Under the pieces are notes generated by a model. That model did no database searches. It was not told the origin of the DNA and saw nothing but the letters and a program-made list of their open reading frames with translations. The translations under genes and the position numbers were made by a program. A stretch of DNA of 64,000 nucleotides, from contig NZ_JAGSYC010000026.1 in the NCBI RefSeq assembly GCF_025685545.1, forward strand, positions 1-64,000, in the 5' to 3' direction. Position 1 is the stretch's first letter; every line of letters begins with the position of its first letter. Shown piece after piece: positions 3,640 through 41,609 of the stretch. This DNA is from Granulicella paludicola. GTDB taxonomy: Bacteria > Acidobacteriota > Terriglobia > Terriglobales > Acidobacteriaceae.

Positions 3640-3649
3640 GTGATCGCGC

Positions 3650-4099
3650 CTAAAGCTCGTCGCCTTCAGGCGCTGAGGTTGGCCTGCGGTAGGCCGATGA
3701 GTGGGGATAGTCTTCGGGGCGCTGACAAAGATGGGCTCGGACTGGATTTTGGTGGATATAGTTCAGGTGCTTCAGGTAGTCGTCGCGGTCGCGCATGCGG
3801 CGATCAGTGAAGTCTCGCTGCCAGATGGGGAGCTTTGATTCAAGCTGGCGTGAGAAGCCGCCTTTGATAAGCTGGACGGCTCGCTCGAGAGTGATCTCCT
3901 GTGGGGTGAGGAGCAGATGGATGTGCTCGGGCATCACTACAAAGGCATGGAGTTTGTAATGGCCTTCTGACCGGTAGTGTTGCAGAGTTTGAAGGAAGAG
4001 TTCGGCGTTGGCCGTCTTTTGAAAGAGTCGGCGGCGGTTGTAGGTTTGGGTGGAGATGAAAAAGGTGCCGTGGCTTGTTGCTCTGGTAGGGATGGCCAT
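3650..4099 (-). mobile_element. REP-associated tyrosine transposase (RAYT, Y1/HUH family)
   Basis: The 149-residue protein carries the Y1-transposase signature: the HUH-like metal site within VVMPEHIHLLLTP, an N-terminal strand GTFFISTQTYNRRRLF, and the C-terminal helix containing the catalytic tyrosine in DYLKHLNYIHQNPVRAHL. The ending HSSAYR is characteristic of RAYTs. These proteins nick REP hairpins in single-stranded DNA and are thought to spread REP sequences. REP-like palindromes at 3620-3639 and 4158-4177 flank the gene in inverted orientation. The frame is intact and the length normal, so it may be active. Confidence 0.9.
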
Positions 4100-4157
4100 G
4101 GGGGTTTGACCAAGCTTACCTCAGGGGCTAAAGCCCGAGATAGTGAGTGGTGGGTTT

Positions 4158-4177
4158 GGTACGGCTGAAGCCGTGCC
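4158..4177 (-). repeat. REP-like palindrome, right of RAYT (inverted copy)
   Basis: GGTACGGCT, GA, AGCCGTGCC with one arm mismatch. Read on the minus strand it is CTCGAAGGGG followed by the hairpin, matching the left copy's TTCGAAGGGG plus hairpin, so the two copies face each other. The hairpin at 9440-9478 shares the core GGCACGGC...GCCGTGCC. Confidence 0.8.
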
Positions 4178-4220
4178 CCTTCGAGGGTGGTGGTGTAGGA
4201 ACTGGCGGCTGCTCGCTTCA

Positions 4221-4295
4221 CTCCGGCCTTCGGCAGAGAGGAAGAGAGGAGTCCACCCATCCGCGATGATGCTGCGTATGGATGGGGCACCCGCC
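4221..4295 (+). repeat. Right direct repeat flanking the RAYT gene
   Basis: Same orientation as 3478-3545: CTCCGGCCTTCGGCAGAGAG at the left end and GCTGCGTATGGATGGGGCAC at the right end, differing in a short central stretch. This could be a duplicated target or an accompanying repeat family. Confidence 0.75.
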
Positions 4296-4312
4296 ACCCG
4301 GCAACTCTGTTA

Positions 4313-5248
4313 TCAAGCTACAGTGTAAGCATCCCTACCAAACAGGATAGTCCCAGAGTGCCTTTCCATTGGCGCTCTTATATCTTCGCTGTCTCGATGC
4401 GCGTAAATGTGTCTGTACGAAAACTGAGCCATTGTTCCGACAAAAGCCAGGGTATTGGTTTCATCAATGGGTGAGACCCACTCCACGCCAGTGGGGCTTG
4501 CGATGAATAAGTGCTGAGGGTCGAGCGGAAACCCAATGTGGGTGTCCTTGTAGCCCCAACCGACACCGACTGATGATCCTCTTTCATGCAGTCGCAATGT
4601 AAATACGGGCGCATCACTCGTAACAAAATACATCCCATTTGCCGGACGTACCACTTGCCAATGCCTTGACACTAAAGCGGAAGCTAGGTTTGGAGTGCTA
4701 TCGTTCATTGAATTGATTTGCTGGAGCGCTGGATCGGCATAGGTTTGCACTAAGCGAGATTTATATTCCCTTATCTCTTCCAACGGAATCAGCCGGCCAA
4801 ACTTGTTAAATATTCTCCATTGGTCATCCCTTAGCGTGGTTGTTTCCAATTGACCTGAGACAAAGTTTGCATAAGTGCCAGGTGAAAGTTCTTCCCGAAT
4901 TTTTCTGGATCGCAAGAAGAGGGAACTAACGTAAAGAGCCCAAGTAGCAGCTTGCACAGAAGTAAGTTCTCTACCGGCAATCAGATTCCTGTAAATGGGG
5001 GCCGCGGCGGTTTCCAACTTTCCTAGTCTGTTCTCCACTTCGAAGTTCGTCTCGTAACCGGGCAATTTACATTCGAAGTAATCTTTTATGACACACTCAT
5101 TGTGAGGAGTGCTTTTCCTTGTAGCTTTGCCCTTTTCATAGACATAAATATTTCCATTCGAATCACTGAAGTGTCGAAAGTGCATCTCCGAGATAACGTG
5201 TTGCTTCCTCGCATTGCGGTTCATAATGATTCTGGATTTCTTCCCCAT
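4313..5248 (-). CDS. DUF4238 domain protein
   Basis: About 311 residues. The N-terminus RKQHVISEMHFRHFSDSNGNIYVYEKGK is the DUF4238 opening, in which a conserved histidine precedes 'phi-x-x-phi-F'; the rest (ENRLGKLETAAAPIYRNLI, YVTSDAPVFTL) also fits. The function of DUF4238 is not established; such genes are scattered and often lie in accessory DNA. AAGGAGG at 5253-5259 is followed by two ATGs; the second, at 5248, has the better spacing. No partner gene is apparent: it sits between the RAYT unit and the nrdJ terminator. The sequence is more A/T-rich than its neighbours, hinting at acquisition. Confidence 0.8.
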   Translation of the reverse strand: MGKKSRIIMNRNARKQHVISEMHFRHFSDSNGNIYVYEKGKATRKSTPHNECVIKDYFECKLPGYETNFEVENRLGKLETAAAPIYRNLIAGRELTSVQAATWALYVSSLFLRSRKIREELSPGTYANFVSGQLETTTLRDDQWRIFNKFGRLIPLEEIREYKSRLVQTYADPALQQINSMNDSTPNLASALVSRHWQVVRPANGMYFVTSDAPVFTLRLHERGSSVGVGWGYKDTHIGFPLDPQHLFIASPTGVEWVSPIDETNTLAFVGTMAQFSYRHIYAHRDSEDIRAPMERHSGTILFGRDAYTVA

Positions 5249-5270
5249 CATTCCTCCTTGCATCAGAAGC

Positions 5271-5299
5271 AAAGGCCCCGCCTTACGGCGGGGCCTTTT
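5271..5299 (-). terminator. Rho-independent terminator after nrdJ
   Basis: GGCCCCGCC TTAC GGCGGGGCC hairpin with A-run on one side and T-run on the other, 40 bp downstream of the nrdJ stop codon. Confidence 0.8.
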
Positions 5300-5336: not shown

Positions 5337-8300
5337 CTAGCTGCAGCCGCTGGTGCTGCCGCATTCCATGCAGCGGTGGCAGGCTCCGTTGCGGACCATG
5401 ATGGCTCCGCAGGTGGAGCAGCTGGGGGCGTCGCCCATGTCGTACATGCCCTTCATGGCGTCACTCGCGTGGATGATGCCGCGGTCGGGGGTCGAGAGCA
5501 GAGATGCAGATTCCTCCGCTGCGCTGCGGAATGACAAATCAGGAGAGCCGCTGCGGGCGGCGAGGTCGGGGGCGATTCCCTGCTGGGGGGCGCGGCGCTC
5601 GTTGAAGAGGGTCGGGTCGTTGGCGAGGGAGGTGGGTTCTGCGAGGCCGGGGAGAGACGGGGTGGAGGTGGAGAAGGTCCCGGCGGTTGCGGAGAGTGAG
5701 TGACCTTCGGGGTTCTTCGACTCCGCGCTGTGCGCTGCGCTCAGAATGACAGAGTTGGTGGGAAGCTCTGCGGCGGGCTTGAGGCCTGCGAAGAGGTCCA
5801 GCTGCTGGCCGGAGAGGAAGCGGAGCTGCATCCAGCGGAAGAGGTAATCCATGATGGACTTGGCGTAGCCGATCTGCTCGTTGCCGGTCCAGCCGGAGGG
5901 CTCGAAGCGGGTGTGCGCGAACTTCTCGCAGAGCAGCTTGAGGGGGACGCCGTGCTGGAGGCACATGGAGATCGCCGTGGCGAACGAATCCATGAGGCCG
6001 GAGATGGTGGAGCCTTCCTTAGCCATGCGGATGAAGATCTCTCCGGGCTGGCCATTCGGGTAGAGCCCGACGGTGATGTAGCCTTCGTGGCCGGCGATGC
6101 CGAACTTGTGCGTGATGCTGGCACGCTCGGCAGGCAGGCGGTGACGCATGGCGCGGGGCGGTGACTGGGCGTCGATGGCGTCGGAGTTTTGCGTGGCGGC
6201 GGCGGCGATCTCGGTGAGCTGGGATTGGGCTGCGGTCAGCTGCTGCTGGGTGGCGGCGAGCTGCTGTGAAAGCAGGTCCTTCGCTTCGCTCAGGATGACA
6301 ATGGTTTCGGCGGCTGCGGCTGCGGCCACGTCCTCCCCTACGTCCGAGGTCTTCTTGTTGGGGTCGACGCTGGTGCCCTTCTTGTCGTCTTCGGTCTGGG
6401 CAGAGACGTTGAGGGGCTGGGTGCCCTTGGAGCCGTCGCGGTAGATGGCCACGGCCTTGAGGCCGAGACGCCAGGACTCGGTGTAGGCGTCGGCGATGTC
6501 CTGCACGGAGCAGTCGTTGGGGAGGTTGACGGTCTTGGAGATGGCACCGGAGAGGAAGGGCTGGGTGGCGGCCATCATTTTGACGTGGCCGAGCCAGGAG
6601 ATGGTGCGGGTTCCCTTGGCGGGCTTGAAGGAGCAGTCGAAGACGGGGAGATGCTCGGCCTTGAGGGCGGGAGCGCCTTCGATGGTGCCGGTGGCGTCGA
6701 TGTAGTTGACGATGCCCTGGACCTCGGCATCGGAGTAGCCGAGCTTGAAGAGAGCGCCGGGAACGGTGTTGTTGACGATCTTGATCATGCCGCCGCCGAC
6801 GAGCTTCTTGTACTTGACGAGGGCGAGATCGGGCTCGATGCCGGTGGTGTCGCAGTCCATCATGAAGCCGATGGTGCCGGTGGGGGCGAGGACGGTGACC
6901 TGCGAGTTGCGGTAGCCGTGCTGCTCGCCGAGGGCGAGGGCGGTGTCCCAGGCATCCTGGCTGGCGGCCTTGAGCTCGTCGAGCTGCGGAGCGACGAAGC
7001 CGGCTGCGTCTTCAGCGCCACGGTGGGTGGGCTTGAGCTCGCGGTCGATGTTGTTGACCTCGGCGCGGTGCATGCGGATGACGTTGAGGAAGGGCTCGCG
7101 GTTGACGTAGAAGCCGGGGCAGGCGCCGCCTTCGATGTCGACGGACTGCGTAATGGGGGTGGCGGCTCCGAGCTTGGGCGCGGAGGAGGCGATGCGTGCG
7201 GACTGGGCGTAGGCGTCGCCACAGAGGATGGAGGTGAGCGTGGCGGCGTAGGCGCGGCCAGCGTCGGAGTCGTAGGGCAGGCCGCGGTCCATCAGCAGCG
7301 CGCCGAGGTTGGCGTAGCCGAGGCCGAGGGGGCGGTAGTCGTGCGAGTTCTTGCTGATCTGCTCGGTGGGGTAACCGGCTGCGTCGACGATGATCTCCAT
7401 GGCGGTGGTGACAATGGAGATGGCGTGACGGTAGGCGGGCACGTCGAACTGGCCGCCGGGCGTGAGGAACTTCATGAGGTTGAAGCTGGCCAGGTTGCAG
7501 GCGGAGTCATCGAGGAACATGTACTCGGAGCAAGGGTTGCTGGCGTTGATGCGGGCGGTGTTCTTGCTGGTGTGCCAGCGGTTGATGGTGGTGTCGTACT
7601 GCATGCCGGGGTCGCCGCACTGCCAGGTGGCTTCGGCGATCTTGTGCATGAGGTCGCGGGCGCGGTACTCCTTCACGGGCGCGCCGTCCTTGACGGTGCG
7701 GGTGGTGAACATGCCATCGTTCTCGACTGCCTGCATGAACTCGTCGTTGACGCGGACGGAGTTGTTGGCGTTCTGGAAGAAGATGGAGGTGAAGGCCTCG
7801 GAGTCGGGGCCGGAGCCGTCGAAGCCAGCCGCCATGAGGTGCCAGGCCTTGCGCTCTTCCTTGACCTTGCACTCGATAAAGTCTTCGATGTCGGGGTGCT
7901 CGATGTTGAGCACGACCATCTTGGCGGCGCGACGGGTCTTGCCGCCGGACTTGATGACGCCAGCGAAGGCGTCGAAGCCGCGCATGAAGCTGAGCGGGCC
8001 GGAGGCGGTGCCGCCACCGGAGAGGGTCTCCATGGAGCCACGGATGGCAGAGAGATTAGAACCGGCGCCCGAACCCCACTTGAAGAGCATGCCTTCGGTC
8101 TTGGCGAGGGTGAGGATGCTATCGAGCGAGTCCTGCACGGAGTTGATGAAGCAGGCCGAGCACTGCGGGCGGCTGTAGCCGGTACGGGAGAAGGCGACTT
8201 TGCCGAGGGTGGCGTCCCAGTGCCAGTTCTGAGCATCGGAGTTGGGCTCGAGGCGGTCGCAGCCGACGTTGAACCAGACGGGCGAGTTGAAGGCCACGCG

Positions 8301-34028: not shown

Positions 34029-35366
34029 ATGTTCTCCATGCAAAGACGGGAATTTCTTCGGATAGCGGGACTGACTACGGCTGCGGTCGGTTGTGAACAC
34101 GCATGGGGAGCGACAAAGGTAGAGGTGCCGCGCTTTCCAAGTGGAAATCTGCCATGGCAGGAGACTTGGGACTCTGCTCTGAAGCTGCTGGCGGGCAACG
34201 TGAAAACCGTTCCCAAATACGACAAGCCCATGCTGATGGAAGGTGCCGTTTATCCCGGAGCGTGGATGGAGTGCGGTCCGTTGGAGGCGCTGGTTTACGC
34301 GCAACTTCGCAGGTATGTGCCACAAGGGGAGGGCCAGCCCGACCCGCTCGCCGTCGCTCGTGCCGAACACATGGCCTTCTTTGCCGTGCAGAAAGAGGAC
34401 GGGCAGATTCCCTCCTCCGACAAGCTCTCCGGAGAAACCGGCTTCGGACAGATTCAAATGGTGGTACCTATCGCTGCGACAGCCTGGGAGCTCGCGCAGA
34501 TGACACACGATCATGAACTGCTGGAAACGGCATACTCCGCTTGCAGCCGGTGGGACACGTGGCTGCGGCGGTATCGCGATACACGCAAGACCGGACTAGT
34601 CGAGGGATTTTGTACGTACGATACCGGACACGACAACAGCCCGCGATGGCAGGGCATCCCCAATCGCTGCCCCGACTCGGATGCGAGAAAGTGCCCGCCG
34701 ATTGCGACGATGCCAAGACTTTGTCCGGATTTATCCGCGACGGTGTACGGGGCGCGGAAAGCTCTGGCAGCGATGGCCGGAGCGCTGGGCAAGAAGAATG
34801 AGGCCGCGAAGTGGGAACAGGATGCAGAAACAATTCGCAGGCTGATTATCGAGAAGTTGTACTCGCCAGAGGATGCTGCATTCTTCGATCTCGACGCGAA
34901 GGGTGAGTTTGTGAAGGTCCGCGGCGACCTGATCACGCGTGTGATGGGCGAGCACGTGCTGAAGCTGGATATTGCGGGAGATCGAAAGATCTTCAACGAT
35001 GTGTGGGAGCGGCAGCTTCACAACCCGAAGGCATTCTGGGCGCCGTTTCCCTTCCCTTCGATCGCGATGGATGATCCGGCGTTTGTGCGACCGATCCCTC
35101 GCAATAGCTGGGGCGGAGCGTCCCAGGCGCTGACCGCGCTGCGCGTTCCTCGATGGATGGAGCACTACGGCAAGAAGGCCGAGATGCGACAGCTGATGAC
35201 GGCTTGGATGACGGCCATTGTGAAATCCGGCGAACCGGGAGGGCCGGGGGAGTTTCGCCAGCAGATGGACCCGCTGACCGGGGAGTTTACGAAGAAAGAT
35301 CCGAGCGGCTACTCTCCTGCTGCGCTGGTGTATCTGGATTTCGTGCAAAGGCTGGCAAAGGGGTGA
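34029..35366 (+). CDS. Exported six-hairpin glycosidase (MGH1-like, GH63/GH37 clan)
   Basis: 445 residues with a twin-arginine signal (MQRREFLRIAGLTTAAVG). (alpha/alpha)6-barrel markers: the acid in YDTGHDNSPRW, RNSWGGASQALTALRVPRWMEHYGKK, and the base in PGEFRQQMDPLTGEF followed by GYSPAALVYLDFV. These resemble mannosylglycerate hydrolase-like and GH63/trehalase-clan enzymes, which release glucose or related units from short glycans or glycosides. Substrate not deducible. The start may be ATG 34029 or ATG 34038. Confidence 0.8.
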   Translation: MFSMQRREFLRIAGLTTAAVGCEHAWGATKVEVPRFPSGNLPWQETWDSALKLLAGNVKTVPKYDKPMLMEGAVYPGAWMECGPLEALVYAQLRRYVPQGEGQPDPLAVARAEHMAFFAVQKEDGQIPSSDKLSGETGFGQIQMVVPIAATAWELAQMTHDHELLETAYSACSRWDTWLRRYRDTRKTGLVEGFCTYDTGHDNSPRWQGIPNRCPDSDARKCPPIATMPRLCPDLSATVYGARKALAAMAGALGKKNEAAKWEQDAETIRRLIIEKLYSPEDAAFFDLDAKGEFVKVRGDLITRVMGEHVLKLDIAGDRKIFNDVWERQLHNPKAFWAPFPFPSIAMDDPAFVRPIPRNSWGGASQALTALRVPRWMEHYGKKAEMRQLMTAWMTAIVKSGEPGGPGEFRQQMDPLTGEFTKKDPSGYSPAALVYLDFVQRLAKG

Positions 35367-35508
35367 GGCAGCGGAGAGGATACTTTCGGCATCGAAACAA
35401 GTGTGCATTCCGACTCGGCGTCCTTTGTTCTTGTCTGCTATACGCGATCGAGCAATTCGTGATGGAATGCAGCGTGGTTAAATCTGCAGTATGCCGGGAG
35501 GCAAAGAA

Positions 35509-35751
35509 ATGATCTGGTGGATTCTGGTTGGTCTGATTGCAGGGTTTCTGACAGGAAAGATTATGAAGGGCTCGGGCTTCGGGGTGATCGGCGACATCGT
35601 CATCGGCATCCTGGGCGCGCTCATTGGCGGATGGATCGCAGGCAAGCTGGGCTTTGCAGCCTCCGGCGGGCTGTTGTATTCCATTCTGATTGCCACGCTC
35701 GGAGCGATTCTTCTGACGTTCCTGTTCCGGCTGGTCACGGGACGCGAATGA
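35509..35751 (+). CDS. GlsB/YeaQ/YmgE family stress-response membrane protein
   Basis: 80 residues, three TM helices, glycine-rich: MIWWILVGLIAGFLTGKIMKGSGFGVIGDIVIGILGALIGGWI. This is the transglycosylase-associated/GlsB family, small inner-membrane proteins induced by stress. ATG 35509 has GGGAGG upstream with good spacing; an ATG at 35491 precedes it. Confidence 0.92.
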   Translation: MIWWILVGLIAGFLTGKIMKGSGFGVIGDIVIGILGALIGGWIAGKLGFAASGGLLYSILIATLGAILLTFLFRLVTGRE

Positions 35752-35774
35752 GTTCCATGAGGCGCTAGCAAGCG

Positions 35775-35813
35775 TGCAGGCCCAGGCGATTTGCCTGGGC
35801 CTGCATCGTTTGG
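35775..35813 (+). terminator. Terminator after the first GlsB-family gene
   Basis: TGCAGGCCCAGGC-GATTT-GCCTGGGCCTGCA followed by TCGTTT. Confidence 0.85.
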
Positions 35814-35921
35814 AGACAGGATGAAAGTTCTTATATTTTTTTCTGGACGATGGTTAGTTTTAAGTGGTTCAATCCTGATCGCTGGCTCGTCGTGAGACGA
35901 GCGTGAATCGAGGACACGACG

Positions 35922-36200
35922 ATGGGCATGAATACGTACTTCTGGTTTGGATTGGTGGGCTGGGTGGCTGGCTGGGTCACTGGCAAGAGCATGAAGTGCG
36001 AGAGCCACTCGCCATGGATCGATGCATTTACAGGGCTGATCGGTGGACTGCTGACGGGTTACGCCGTTCGCGGTGTTGAACATGTGAATAATTGGGGTTT
36101 CCTGATGGCCGTAATCGTGGCTTCCGTGGGCGCTGCGCTACTGACATGGGTGACGCATCGCGTGAAGGATGCCGTGGAACATCGGCATACCGCGCACTAA
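35922..36200 (+). CDS. Second GlsB/YeaQ/YmgE-like membrane protein
   Basis: 92 residues: MGMNTYFWFGLVGWVAGWVTGKSMKCE, DAFTGLIGGLLTGYAVRGV and a third helix FLMAVIVASVGAALLTWV. It is a diverged relative of the gene 170 bp upstream, with an extended C-terminus rich in charged residues and histidines. Each has its own terminator, so they are separately expressed. No catalytic motif. Confidence 0.85.
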   Translation: MGMNTYFWFGLVGWVAGWVTGKSMKCESHSPWIDAFTGLIGGLLTGYAVRGVEHVNNWGFLMAVIVASVGAALLTWVTHRVKDAVEHRHTAH

Positions 36201-36275: not shown

Positions 36276-37988
36276 TTAGGGCTGGGTGGGAGCGGGAGAT
36301 GGGGGTGGCACAGCCGGGGGAGCAGTTGTATCAGCTGGCGGCGTGGTGCTGGTGGCCATCGGCTGCGTGAGGTCGATGTCGGCGGTGCCGATGCGGCCCG
36401 AAGAACCGATGCGCACGACGAAGCGAGCGCGGGTGGCTTTGCCTTCGAGATCGACCTTCTGCTGGAAGTTCAGTGGAACCTCGATGCGACCTGTGGCTGG
36501 AACCTTTGCGGGTGCGCTGAACTTCATGCTGAATGCCTTGGGATTTCCGATCGGCTTACTCTTCTTATCGAATTGAGTGATAGCAAGCACGATGTCAACT
36601 TTGCGAGTGGGGTCGGCCTCAGTGCCAAGAGACCAGGCGAGGCTGCGCGGAGCCACATGGATCTGAAACGTCTTCGGGTCGTTGGCCACACGGGAGACAT
36701 TGATCTCGGCGCCGTCATAGGCCATTTTGCTGTCGGCGGCAGAGACAAGATCGGACATCAAACGGCGTGAAGGAGCTTTGGGATCGACCGGGCGCGGGCG
36801 GAAGGCAAGGTAGTAGCCCTTGGTGGTAGAGATGGTGACGCCGGGACGATCGACCGTGACGTTGATCTTGCGGAACTTGTACGCATCGCGCGAGGTGTTG
36901 GTGGGGTGATAGACGAGGGTATAGAAGTCTGTGCCCTCTTCGGCGGCGGCATTGATTTGGACGTCGACGTCGTTGCGGCCATACATGGTGCGGCCGCCAG
37001 TGGCCTGGGCTAACTGCGAGAACTCATAGTTGCCGCCGAAAGGGTCGTTAAAGGCAGCAGCCCCGCCGTAGACGCCGGGGTCGATGAGCAAACCTGCAGG
37101 GTCAATGGTGGTAAGGGTGATGCGGGCATCGCGCATTAGATTTACGCAGTCCTGGCGCAGGCTATTGATGCGGTTCATCGTATCGACCGGTTGGTTTTCA
37201 AATCGCAGCGCCGGAAAGCCGCGACCGATCCAGATCATGTTCTTGTGGCCCTGATGGCCGATGGAGGCTTCAGAGATGCGACGGAGCGTGAGGAAGGCGG
37301 TTCCATAGCGCTCGGCAGCCCAGGACATGGAGTTGTTGCGCCAGGGGTTGCCGCTGAAGTGGTGCTTGAGCACGTCGAGTAGGAGCTGCTTGTTCTGCGT
37401 GTAGTCGTGCAGCACATCGAACTTATCGATGCCGACGGCGATGAGCATCGTGGGCGTGCTCATGTGGTCGGGCTGGCGTTCGAGGTATTTCTTAAGCGAG
37501 TACTGGGCGAAGGCTTCGTCCTCGAAGCGAGTGTTGAACTCGTCGAGCAGGATGATGTTGACGGGCGCGCGAGGGGCGAGGCGATCGAGGTCGGCGGTGG
37601 ATTCGATATCGACCTCAGGCGCTGGCAGGCGCGAGGTGCCAAGCTCGAAGTTGGTGATGGTCTGCGGGTCTTCGGACTCGGTAACGTGGAAGTCGGACTT
37701 GGTGAGACCCTGCACCGTCTTGCCGTCTTTGGTGGTAGCGACGACGTCGAGCACGACGATGCGCGTGGAGACGTGGACGGTGTAGGTGCCGTCGGGGTTC
37801 TGCGTGGGCTGCGTCGGGGTTCCATTTCGCTGACCGTTCTGCTGGGTTTGAACGGGTGGCGGCGCGGTCTGTACGGGCGCGGGAGTGGGTTCCTGCGAGG
37901 TGACCGTGACGGTCTTGGAGGCGTCCTGGGCGAGTAGCGGAAGTGCGAGGGAGATGGCGAGAAATGCGGGACCGATGCGGCGGTGCAT
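36276..37988 (-). CDS. VWFA-related protein (acidobacterial TIGR03436-type)
   Basis: 570 residues from ATG 37988 (MHRRIGPAFLAISLALPLLAQ, signal peptide). A Pro/Gln-rich linker, then an N-terminal strand domain (STRIVVLDVVATTKDGKTVQGLTKSDFHVTESEDPQTI), then a von Willebrand A-like fold with ILLDEFNTRFEDEAFAQ (MIDAS-like D-x-F-N-T) and HKNMIWIGRGFPALRF. The C-terminal half is beta-rich and ends in a Pro/Thr tail. This architecture is very common and multiplied in acidobacteria. Exported, probably adhesive or scaffold; no known partner. AGGTCAG upstream. Confidence 0.9.
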   Translation of the reverse strand: MHRRIGPAFLAISLALPLLAQDASKTVTVTSQEPTPAPVQTAPPPVQTQQNGQRNGTPTQPTQNPDGTYTVHVSTRIVVLDVVATTKDGKTVQGLTKSDFHVTESEDPQTITNFELGTSRLPAPEVDIESTADLDRLAPRAPVNIILLDEFNTRFEDEAFAQYSLKKYLERQPDHMSTPTMLIAVGIDKFDVLHDYTQNKQLLLDVLKHHFSGNPWRNNSMSWAAERYGTAFLTLRRISEASIGHQGHKNMIWIGRGFPALRFENQPVDTMNRINSLRQDCVNLMRDARITLTTIDPAGLLIDPGVYGGAAAFNDPFGGNYEFSQLAQATGGRTMYGRNDVDVQINAAAEEGTDFYTLVYHPTNTSRDAYKFRKINVTVDRPGVTISTTKGYYLAFRPRPVDPKAPSRRLMSDLVSAADSKMAYDGAEINVSRVANDPKTFQIHVAPRSLAWSLGTEADPTRKVDIVLAITQFDKKSKPIGNPKAFSMKFSAPAKVPATGRIEVPLNFQQKVDLEGKATRARFVVRIGSSGRIGTADIDLTQPMATSTTPPADTTAPPAVPPPSPAPTQP

Positions 37989-38080
37989 GCTGACCTCGTT
38001 GGTGGCGCGTTGCAGGTAAAGACACGGCAACGAGATAAGAGTCGCATACAGACGCGAAGATAGGTAGAGAAAAGATGAAG

Positions 38081-38106
38081 AAAGGCCCGGAGTAGTCCGG
38101 GCCTTT
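38081..38106 (-). terminator. Terminator left by rtcB
   Basis: AAAGGCCCGGA-GTA-GTCCGGGCCTTT 15 bp after the stop codon of the rtcB fragment, followed on the minus strand by TTC. The core GGCCCGGA..TCCGGGCC recurs at 39743-39777. Confidence 0.8.
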
Positions 38107-38120
38107 CGGGTGATGCAGGA

Positions 38121-38370
38121 TCAATCCTTGTAGGGATCGAACTCGTTGGCTCCTGCCATGGCCACGCCGACGGGCGTGAGCGTGTGCAGGAGGCGGATGG
38201 TGTTGCTATGAGCTGCAAGCACCTCGGTGAGGCGCTTGTAACAGTGCGGTGATTCGTCCAGACCTCCACCCTTAAGGACGACGTTCGAGCGCTGCATCCA
38301 CTCGTGCATCATCTCGGGCTTGACCAGGCCTTCACGCTTGCAGACACCGGTCTTGCGGTCTTCTTTTTGA
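38121..38370 (-). pseudogene. rtcB: 3' fragment of an RtcB-family RNA ligase gene
   Basis: The minus-strand frame encodes only about the last 80 residues of an RtcB-type protein: RKTGVCKREGLVKPEMMHEW, RSNVVLKGGGLDESPHCYKR, HTLTPVGVAMAGANEFDPYKD and a stop. VLKGGGLDESPH..YK and the GVAMAG end are typical of the family, whose full length is over 400 residues. Further 5' the frame meets a TGA near 38377 and the sequence is unrelated, so the manganese-site domain is absent. RtcB joins 2',3'-cyclic phosphate to 5'-OH RNA ends. This remnant cannot be active. Confidence 0.75.
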
Positions 38371-38462
38371 CAAAATCAGAGGATTATGTTCCGCTAAAGG
38401 AGTTCCGTCGCATCGTCGCCGAGAACAAATCCGCGCTGCACCGTCAGCGACTAAGAGGCTAA
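38367..38462 (+). pseudogene. Possible 3' remnant of a gene upstream of the AIPR-like gene
   Basis: A 31-codon frame from TTG 38367 reads LTKSEDYVPLKEFRRIVAEN then KSALHRQRLRG, stop at 38462, one base before the AIPR-like ATG. It looks like the end of a real protein and its tight spacing suggests an upstream operon partner. Its 5' part would be lost at the junction with the rtcB fragment. It could instead be a short leader peptide. Confidence 0.35.
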
Positions 38463-38463
38463 T

Positions 38464-39720
38464 ATGTCAGACAGCGTTATCGTTCCCCTTCCATTCCTTT
38501 CATCCCGCAAGCTTTCAGATCCATTCAACCCCCTCGAAAACCCAATCACAACCTACGAGTTCCGCGTAGACACACGGTCAATTCCCGACCTGCCTACCGA
38601 TGCTAACGCGCGACCATCCGAAGCGGCCAAGCTGCGCCGCGTCTACAAGTCGGTGCGTAATGCAGCATTGGACGGTGCACTTGACCCTGATGAAGGCGCA
38701 ACGCCAGGGCTCTTCGGCTATAAGCACTTGGGTATTAACGTTATCGCCGAGCGCGTGGAGGAAACCGATAAGAATCTCGCCACTCTCCACTTCAAACCCG
38801 GTCAGGGAGTGATGAACGGGGGGCACGGACTCGCGATCTTGCGTGAGCTCCAGCAGGATCCCGGTGCCGCGGAGATGCCACCTAACTTCGTCAAGGTAAC
38901 CGTAATCGTTGGGCTGCCAAACGCTGTGATCCCCGAGGTAGCCGGGGCAAACAATACTTCGGTTCAGGTCAAGGCTCAGTCGCTTCTCGAACTCAAGGGC
39001 GCTTTCGAACCTCTAAAGGATGTGTTGAAGGGGACGAGACTGGAAAATGACGTTCAGTGGCGCGAAGGAGACGTCGGCAGGGTAAAGGTGGACGATATCA
39101 TCGCAGCCATGACTTGCTTTCGTAGCGATGTTTATACCATTGGGGATCGCAAGCGTACACCGCACAACGCCTATGCTTACAAGACCGGGCTTATCGACGA
39201 CTTTCGCCGTGATCTAGAGGGTTACCATGCGCTAGCACCGCGACTAACTGAAATATTGGAATTTCAGGATTATGTGCGGACGCAGCCTAAGAAGGTTTAC
39301 AACGAAAATGGCGGGCGTTTCGGTGGTTTGAAGTTTGTTGATTCCATCTACACGGATGCTAAGGGTGAGAAGCGTAAGAAGCCGCTCCCTCCCTTCGTTA
39401 TGCCTTTTACTGGCGAGGAAGTTGAGCATCGCTTGAATGTTGCTGCAGTTTTCCCGATTCTCGCTGCGTTTCGGCAGATGATCAGCCGAAACGGTAATGA
39501 GTTTGAGTGGGTTGGTGGCTTTTCAGCAGTCAAGGAGCTTTGGGACTCCATAGCGATCGATGTAATGGATACTACAAAAGACGCCTGCCAACAGGCGGGT
39601 TATGTGCTGAATGCGTTGGGCAAATCCCGTTCCCACTGGGAAAACGTTCAAAGGATTGTGCAGATCAAGCTTCAGGATCAAGAGCTCGAGAAGATGCGTG
39701 CTGCCCTCAAAGACAGATAA
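38464..39720 (+). CDS. AIPR-like (abortive phage resistance family) protein
   Basis: 418 residues; AAGAGG five bases upstream. The core GLFGYKHLGINVIAERVEET, then VMNGGHGLAILREL, VKVTVIVGLP and VAGANNTSVQVKAQSLLELKGAF follows the AIPR layout, in which an 'NGxxT/NGGH' loop and a later 'NN' segment are diagnostic. AIPR proteins were named from abortive-infection phage resistance and are often found next to restriction-modification genes. It is related in layout to DGQHR/DndB proteins, which is the main alternative. No methyltransferase or nuclease is adjacent. It lies between two similar terminator hairpins and replaces most of rtcB. Confidence 0.6.
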   Translation: MSDSVIVPLPFLSSRKLSDPFNPLENPITTYEFRVDTRSIPDLPTDANARPSEAAKLRRVYKSVRNAALDGALDPDEGATPGLFGYKHLGINVIAERVEETDKNLATLHFKPGQGVMNGGHGLAILRELQQDPGAAEMPPNFVKVTVIVGLPNAVIPEVAGANNTSVQVKAQSLLELKGAFEPLKDVLKGTRLENDVQWREGDVGRVKVDDIIAAMTCFRSDVYTIGDRKRTPHNAYAYKTGLIDDFRRDLEGYHALAPRLTEILEFQDYVRTQPKKVYNENGGRFGGLKFVDSIYTDAKGEKRKKPLPPFVMPFTGEEVEHRLNVAAVFPILAAFRQMISRNGNEFEWVGGFSAVKELWDSIAIDVMDTTKDACQQAGYVLNALGKSRSHWENVQRIVQIKLQDQELEKMRAALKDR

Positions 39721-39742
39721 GTAGGTTTTCGGACAGAAACAG

Positions 39743-39777
39743 ACCAAGGCCCGGACTTTAGTCCGGGCCTTGGTTTT
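39743..39777 (+). terminator. Terminator of the AIPR-like gene
   Basis: ACCAAGGCCCGGAC-TTTA-GTCCGGGCCTTGGT then TTTTG. Confidence 0.92.
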
Positions 39778-39852: not shown

Positions 39853-40518
39853 TTACGAAGCAGCTTCTTCCGTCGCGACGATCTTCGCCGAAGCTACGGT
39901 GTAATTGGGCTCGCCGATCTTGAAGCGGGCAAAGCGGCGGACCGAGATGTTCTCTCCGAGCTTGGCTACGTTCGTGGCGATGACCTGCGCGATGGTCTGC
40001 GACTGGTCCTTGATGAACGGCTGGTCGAGGAGGCAGACCTCTTCGTAGAACTTGCCCATCTTGCCTTCGAGCATCTTCTCGATGATGTTTGCGGGCTTGC
40101 CGGAGGCCGCTGCCTGGGCGCGGTAGATCTCCTTCTCCTTCTCGATGTCCTCGGGCGTGACCTCGTCCTTACCCACGAAGCGCGGATCGACAGCGGCGAT
40201 GTGCATCGCGATGTCTTTCAGGAGTTCCTGGAAAGCATCGGTGCGGGCGACGAAGTCGGATTCGCAGTTGAGCTCAAGCAGAACGCCGATCTTACCGCCA
40301 GCGTGGATGTAGGTTCCGACAGCACCCTCGTTGGTGGTGCGGCTTGCCTTCTTGGCGGCCGAGGCCATGCCGCGCTTGCGCAGCACAACGAAGGCGTTTT
40401 CCATGTCGCCCTTGGCTTCCTGCAGGGCCTTGAGACAGTCGCCCATGGGGGCGCCGGACTTTTCGCGGAGTTCCTTGACGAGCTTGGCGTCGATCTTTAC
40501 GGCTTCAGTGGTAGACAT
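39853..40518 (-). CDS. tsf: Elongation factor Ts
   Basis: 221 residues, ATG 40518 with AAGGA five bases upstream (an in-frame start further up at 40536 is unlikely). It recycles EF-Tu by releasing GDP. The N-terminal UBA-like domain (VKELREKSGAPMGDCLKALQEAKGDMENA) and the core (GGKIGVLLELNCESDFVART) are intact. At 221 residues it is shorter than the 283 residues of E. coli EF-Ts, nearer the compact Thermus form. It follows rpsB with a hairpin between them. Confidence 0.97.
   Translation of the reverse strand: MSTTEAVKIDAKLVKELREKSGAPMGDCLKALQEAKGDMENAFVVLRKRGMASAAKKASRTTNEGAVGTYIHAGGKIGVLLELNCESDFVARTDAFQELLKDIAMHIAAVDPRFVGKDEVTPEDIEKEKEIYRAQAAASGKPANIIEKMLEGKMGKFYEEVCLLDQPFIKDQSQTIAQVIATNVAKLGENISVRRFARFKIGEPNYTVASAKIVATEEAAS

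Positions 40519-40670: not shown

Positions 40671-41609
<939 letters not shown>

Follow-up and report, generated by a model that had tools for sequence, protein, structure and literature searches.

The window analysed here, a stretch of 64,000 nucleotides from Granulicella paludicola, documents how a defence-type gene took the place of an RNA-repair gene, and the native flanks can still be read on both sides. We consider it likely that codons 1-325 of rtcB were replaced when an AIPR cargo gene was acquired horizontally. It is clear that the gene replacement is real, horizontally driven and probably recent, and that it is ordinary in kind, being made up of parts of known kinds.

Results

Table 1. 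Parts of the tsf-rtcB locus, in window coordinates
Feature	Position	Strand	Remarks
Downstream neighbour ORF	36276..37988	-	No Pfam assignment; orthologue downstream of intact rtcB in G039
Native rtcB terminator	38080..38107	-	12-pair hairpin; same type after intact rtcB in G036, G161 and G267
rtcB 3' stub, last 79 codons plus stop (codons 326-404 of 404)	38121..38360	-	
Apparent tail of upstream partner gene (FFLTKSEDYVPLKEFRRIVAENKSALHRQRLRG), about 33 codons	38361..38462	+	Open frame
AIPR-family gene, 418 aa, foreign	38464..39720	+	PF10592 match, GC3, distribution
Right junction, AIPR stop to tsf terminator	39721..39742	.	Likeness to the tsf-downstream sequence of G007 starts at the terminator (by eye)
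Native tsf terminator	39743..39774	-	Hairpin; equivalent after tsf in G007 and other relatives
tsf (elongation factor Ts)	39853..40518	-	Upstream neighbour of rtcB in relatives
rpsB	40671..41606	-	Next upstream neighbour of rtcB

A preliminary description of this DNA had recognised a 3' stub of about 80 codons from an RtcB-type ligase, and such a stub is indeed present (Table 1), with 87% amino acid identity to codons 326-404 of the intact RtcB protein of relative G010 (E 3.5e-43) and 84-92% identity to other intact rtcB tails. Alignment puts the switch in sequence at 38360/38361, where the native sequence begins at GACCGC, and not at 38366-38370 as first proposed. Next to it, as was also noticed early on, lies the tail of another reading frame (38361-38462), which stops with a single base between it and the ATG of the AIPR ORF (38464-39720). 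The foreign block as a whole runs from 38361 to about 39742; its left end breaks into rtcB, whose native tail fills the roughly 250 bases up to the rtcB terminator, and its right end is at most 22 bases from the tsf terminator.

The stub scores 12.4 bits against PF01139, below the Pfam cut-off of 27 (E 0.09), and the full-length RtcB domain with its catalytic motifs is gone, codons 326-404 alone surviving. The guanylylation and metal motifs of RtcB map upstream of the retained 79 codons, and HGAGR and other motifs presumably lie upstream of the stub-equivalent part of the G010 RtcB protein as well; because these motifs are upstream of it, the stub, judged by its sequence, cannot be a ligase. 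Profile and protein searches found no second rtcB in the same genome. The stub is free of stops and frameshifts, and comparison with intact tails gave dN of 0.05-0.12 with dS of at least 0.7, for a dN/dS of 0.04-0.14, the same as between intact tails. As the frame is open and dN as low as between intact pairs, either the truncation is recent or the tail is still under constraint; a recent truncation of rtcB is the simpler option and probably the right one.

The preliminary description had suggested comparing synteny in close relatives, and an intact rtcB does stand at the same place there, following rpsB-tsf directly and on the same strand in seven genomes of the same genus (G002, G006, G010, G012, G016, G034 and G036) and, complete, in two further genera, which makes three genera in all. 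The other side of the locus is seen in G039 (L092), in which rtcB (3647-4873) is followed by orthologues of the window ORFs 36276-37988 (at 6388-8058, 47% identity), 35491-35751 and 34029-35366, and in which tsf is absent within 3.6 kb of rtcB. The ancestral order rpsB-tsf-rtcB-ORF is pieced together from several relatives, and no single one has the whole of it. Because the nearest relative, G007, is without rtcB and carries a Gp49-like plus HTH pair of toxin-antitoxin type at the equivalent site (L044, 6532-7426), the immediate pre-insertion state is not visible. Among other features of this part of the window, two adjacent small ORFs at 35491-36200 resemble each other, with cross-hits of 33-38% in relatives.

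The AIPR ORF matches PF10592 with 43.9 bits over residues 81-363 (Pfam cut-off 25), and by composition and distribution the gene is foreign. Its G+C content is 53% and its GC3 0.58, against a GC3 of 0.76-0.82 in the stub, tsf, rpsB and the downstream ORF. Counting the window genome in each case, protein searches gave matches in 3 of 101 relatives and, across the phylum, in 4 of 396 genomes, so the vertical conservation across the genus that had been named as an argument against a swap was not found. The matches in the other genomes are at 27-33% identity, the nearest homologues, at about 30-32%, are scattered singletons, and no close AIPR relative was found within the genus. The AIPR family as such is patchy: within the taxonomic family 51 of 300 genomes have it, and these include four others of the genus. 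Two homologues among the closest (L130 and L131) come from viral contigs and have phage-type integrase genes nearby; that of G054 has integrase-like ORFs and a TIR gene in its vicinity, and several plasmids carry stand-alone AIPR genes accompanied by a divergent HTH gene.

Judging by its family and surroundings, the AIPR protein most probably belongs to the accessory phage-defence proteins of AbiU1/AIPR type. It exceeds the Pfam cut-off and shares invariant positions with plasmid-borne AIPR proteins, although it is a distant member (24-32% identity to the relatives found). NGGH and NTSVQV are among its conserved positions. AbiU1/AIPR proteins have been tied to restriction-modification loci (PMC3506569, PMC2292703), and AIPR also to Mza-like loci (PMC9523054). 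Such partners are common for AIPR genes and not obligatory. The gene in the window has no restriction-modification or Mza-type partner: it stands between tsf and the rtcB stub, and its one companion is what seems to be the end of a gene upstream. The protein had no match in PADLOC, NCBIfam or PHROGs, a PDB profile search with it returned nothing, and its single-sequence structure model (pLDDT 33) was unusable. Pattern searches of the genome and viral contigs gave no close AIPR relatives with the single protein and, with a two-sequence alignment, one and three distant relatives, respectively. For the frame tail, nothing above chance was obtained in Pfam, PHROGs, phages or plasmids, and the idea that it is a relative of the gene upstream of the AIPR gene of G550 was dropped, as the two do not align.

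Discussion

The history that best explains the locus would start from rpsB-tsf-rtcB followed by ORF 36276-37988. A horizontally acquired fragment with a stand-alone AIPR gene would have come in, probably as the edge of an integrative element, prophage or satellite, and recombination between the tsf terminator and rtcB codon 325 would have taken out the catalytic portion of rtcB together with the tsf-rtcB spacer, leaving 79 codons and the rtcB terminator. The junctions fit an insertion that deleted codons 1-325 along with the spacer, and the frame tail, with its end a single base away from the AIPR start, points to an operon that was cut down. We infer the vehicle, because no integrase or transposase was seen at the block; reading the listed ORFs of the window by eye did not reveal an integrase either. 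In another part of the window, at 3650-5272, an IS200-like transposase ORF lies beside a DUF4238 gene.

It is possible, if on balance unlikely, that rtcB was already decaying and that the AIPR gene landed by chance in a dead gene. Pseudogenes or remnants of rtcB are found in G324, G699, G708, G738 and G013, and the gene is missing from most of the genus. The stub, however, is free of decay, with an open frame and low dN/dS, even though a brief decay could have gone unmarked in 79 codons. Regarding these remnants in general, the 3' tail is the part kept in remnants of this rtcB type in several genomes (L122, L123, L124 and L109), and no front-only remnant was present among those listed in the two genera searched.

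Some integrative elements insert in the 3' end of a gene and leave a displaced tail behind. The window resembles such cases in that a tail stub adjoins cargo, and G010 in that a tail duplication surrounds cargo; the window differs from them in that rtcB was not restored and no integrase was seen. A more specific version of the replacement would follow this path: an element in the 3' part of rtcB would have supplied a new tail, the stub being the displaced native one, and a later deletion would have removed the reconstituted rtcB with most of the element. The model for it is G010, where intact rtcB is followed by two cargo ORFs and then by a second rtcB tail from codon 331, the sequence that follows this distal tail is similar to the native terminators that G002 and G034 have after rtcB, and the breakpoint is about 5 codons at most from that of the window. 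We nevertheless regard this path as rather doubtful, as the two breakpoints are not identical, G010 is the sole relative of this sort, and the window genome holds no remnant of a reconstituted rtcB. The arrangement in G010 (L058, 4869-5800) amounts to an insertion after intact rtcB, about 1.07 kb long, that duplicated the tail, and its cargo comprises a small ORF (80 aa) and a retropepsin-like protein just below Pfam cut-offs.

The preliminary description had rightly reported two look-alike terminators (then placed at 38081-38106 and 39743-39777), and had proposed that recombination between their repeated arms brought in the block. Both hairpins do contain the exact core GGCCCGGA...TCCGGGCC, and they account for two of the five sites in the genome that have it. 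We find this proposal very improbable, because relatives with intact rtcB and no swap have GCCCGG-type hairpins after tsf and, mostly, after rtcB, which makes the resemblance ancestral, and because the native rtcB tail separates the left terminator from the left junction. The two hairpins are the native terminators of rtcB and tsf. That the junction is an assembly artefact is scarcely credible: the genome is a draft in 26 contigs, but the junction lies 38 kb inside a contig of 1.06 Mb, the foreign AIPR gene is complete, and the genome has no intact rtcB elsewhere.

In presenting the swap as a defence-type gene taking the place of an RNA ligase, the preliminary description was correct about the replacement, given the intact rtcB of relatives and the foreign AIPR gene; a functional trade between the two families is not supported. 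Among the 300 genomes of the taxonomic family, 51 are AIPR-positive and 68 RtcB-positive, and 13 have both against 11.6 expected (a hand count, uncorrected for relatedness); there is no sign of avoidance, and we see no support for a functional antagonism between AIPR and RtcB.

Our comparison also points, tentatively, to the tsf-rtcB interval and the rtcB 3' end as a recurrent exchange site in this family, where defence-type cassettes may insert and sometimes remove the front of rtcB while leaving its tail. Besides the window genome, four genomes have defence-type genes against rtcB or its tail, and one of these four has the geometry of the window: in G738 (L123, 3726-6051), tsf is followed by ParA-like and Schlafen-AlbA genes on the opposite strand and then by a damaged remnant of the rtcB tail. 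The others are G010 (L128, 11151-14544), with a Drt3a and Drt3b pair (DRT3) convergent with the second rtcB tail, G002 (L056, 4836-7703), in which intact rtcB is followed at a distance of about 330 bases by a NACHT protein that has NNH2 and HEAT domains, and G034, with YaaC and a weak PycTM match after rtcB. Reading the listed ORFs of other rtcB-bearing genomes by eye, we noticed no defence-type gene. Recurrence is a lead and not a result, since three of the five genomes with defence-type genes at the site belong to one close group and the count is a raw one. Unrelated defence-type genes after tsf or rtcB in some relatives recall defence islands at variable chromosomal sites, whereas the window genome has a single gene and no island.

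The possible hotspot is the sole aspect of wider interest in these data, which point to a site that gains unrelated defence-type genes in this family. If it proves to be a true hotspot, checking beside tsf and rtcB would be a simple route to new defence systems in these bacteria.
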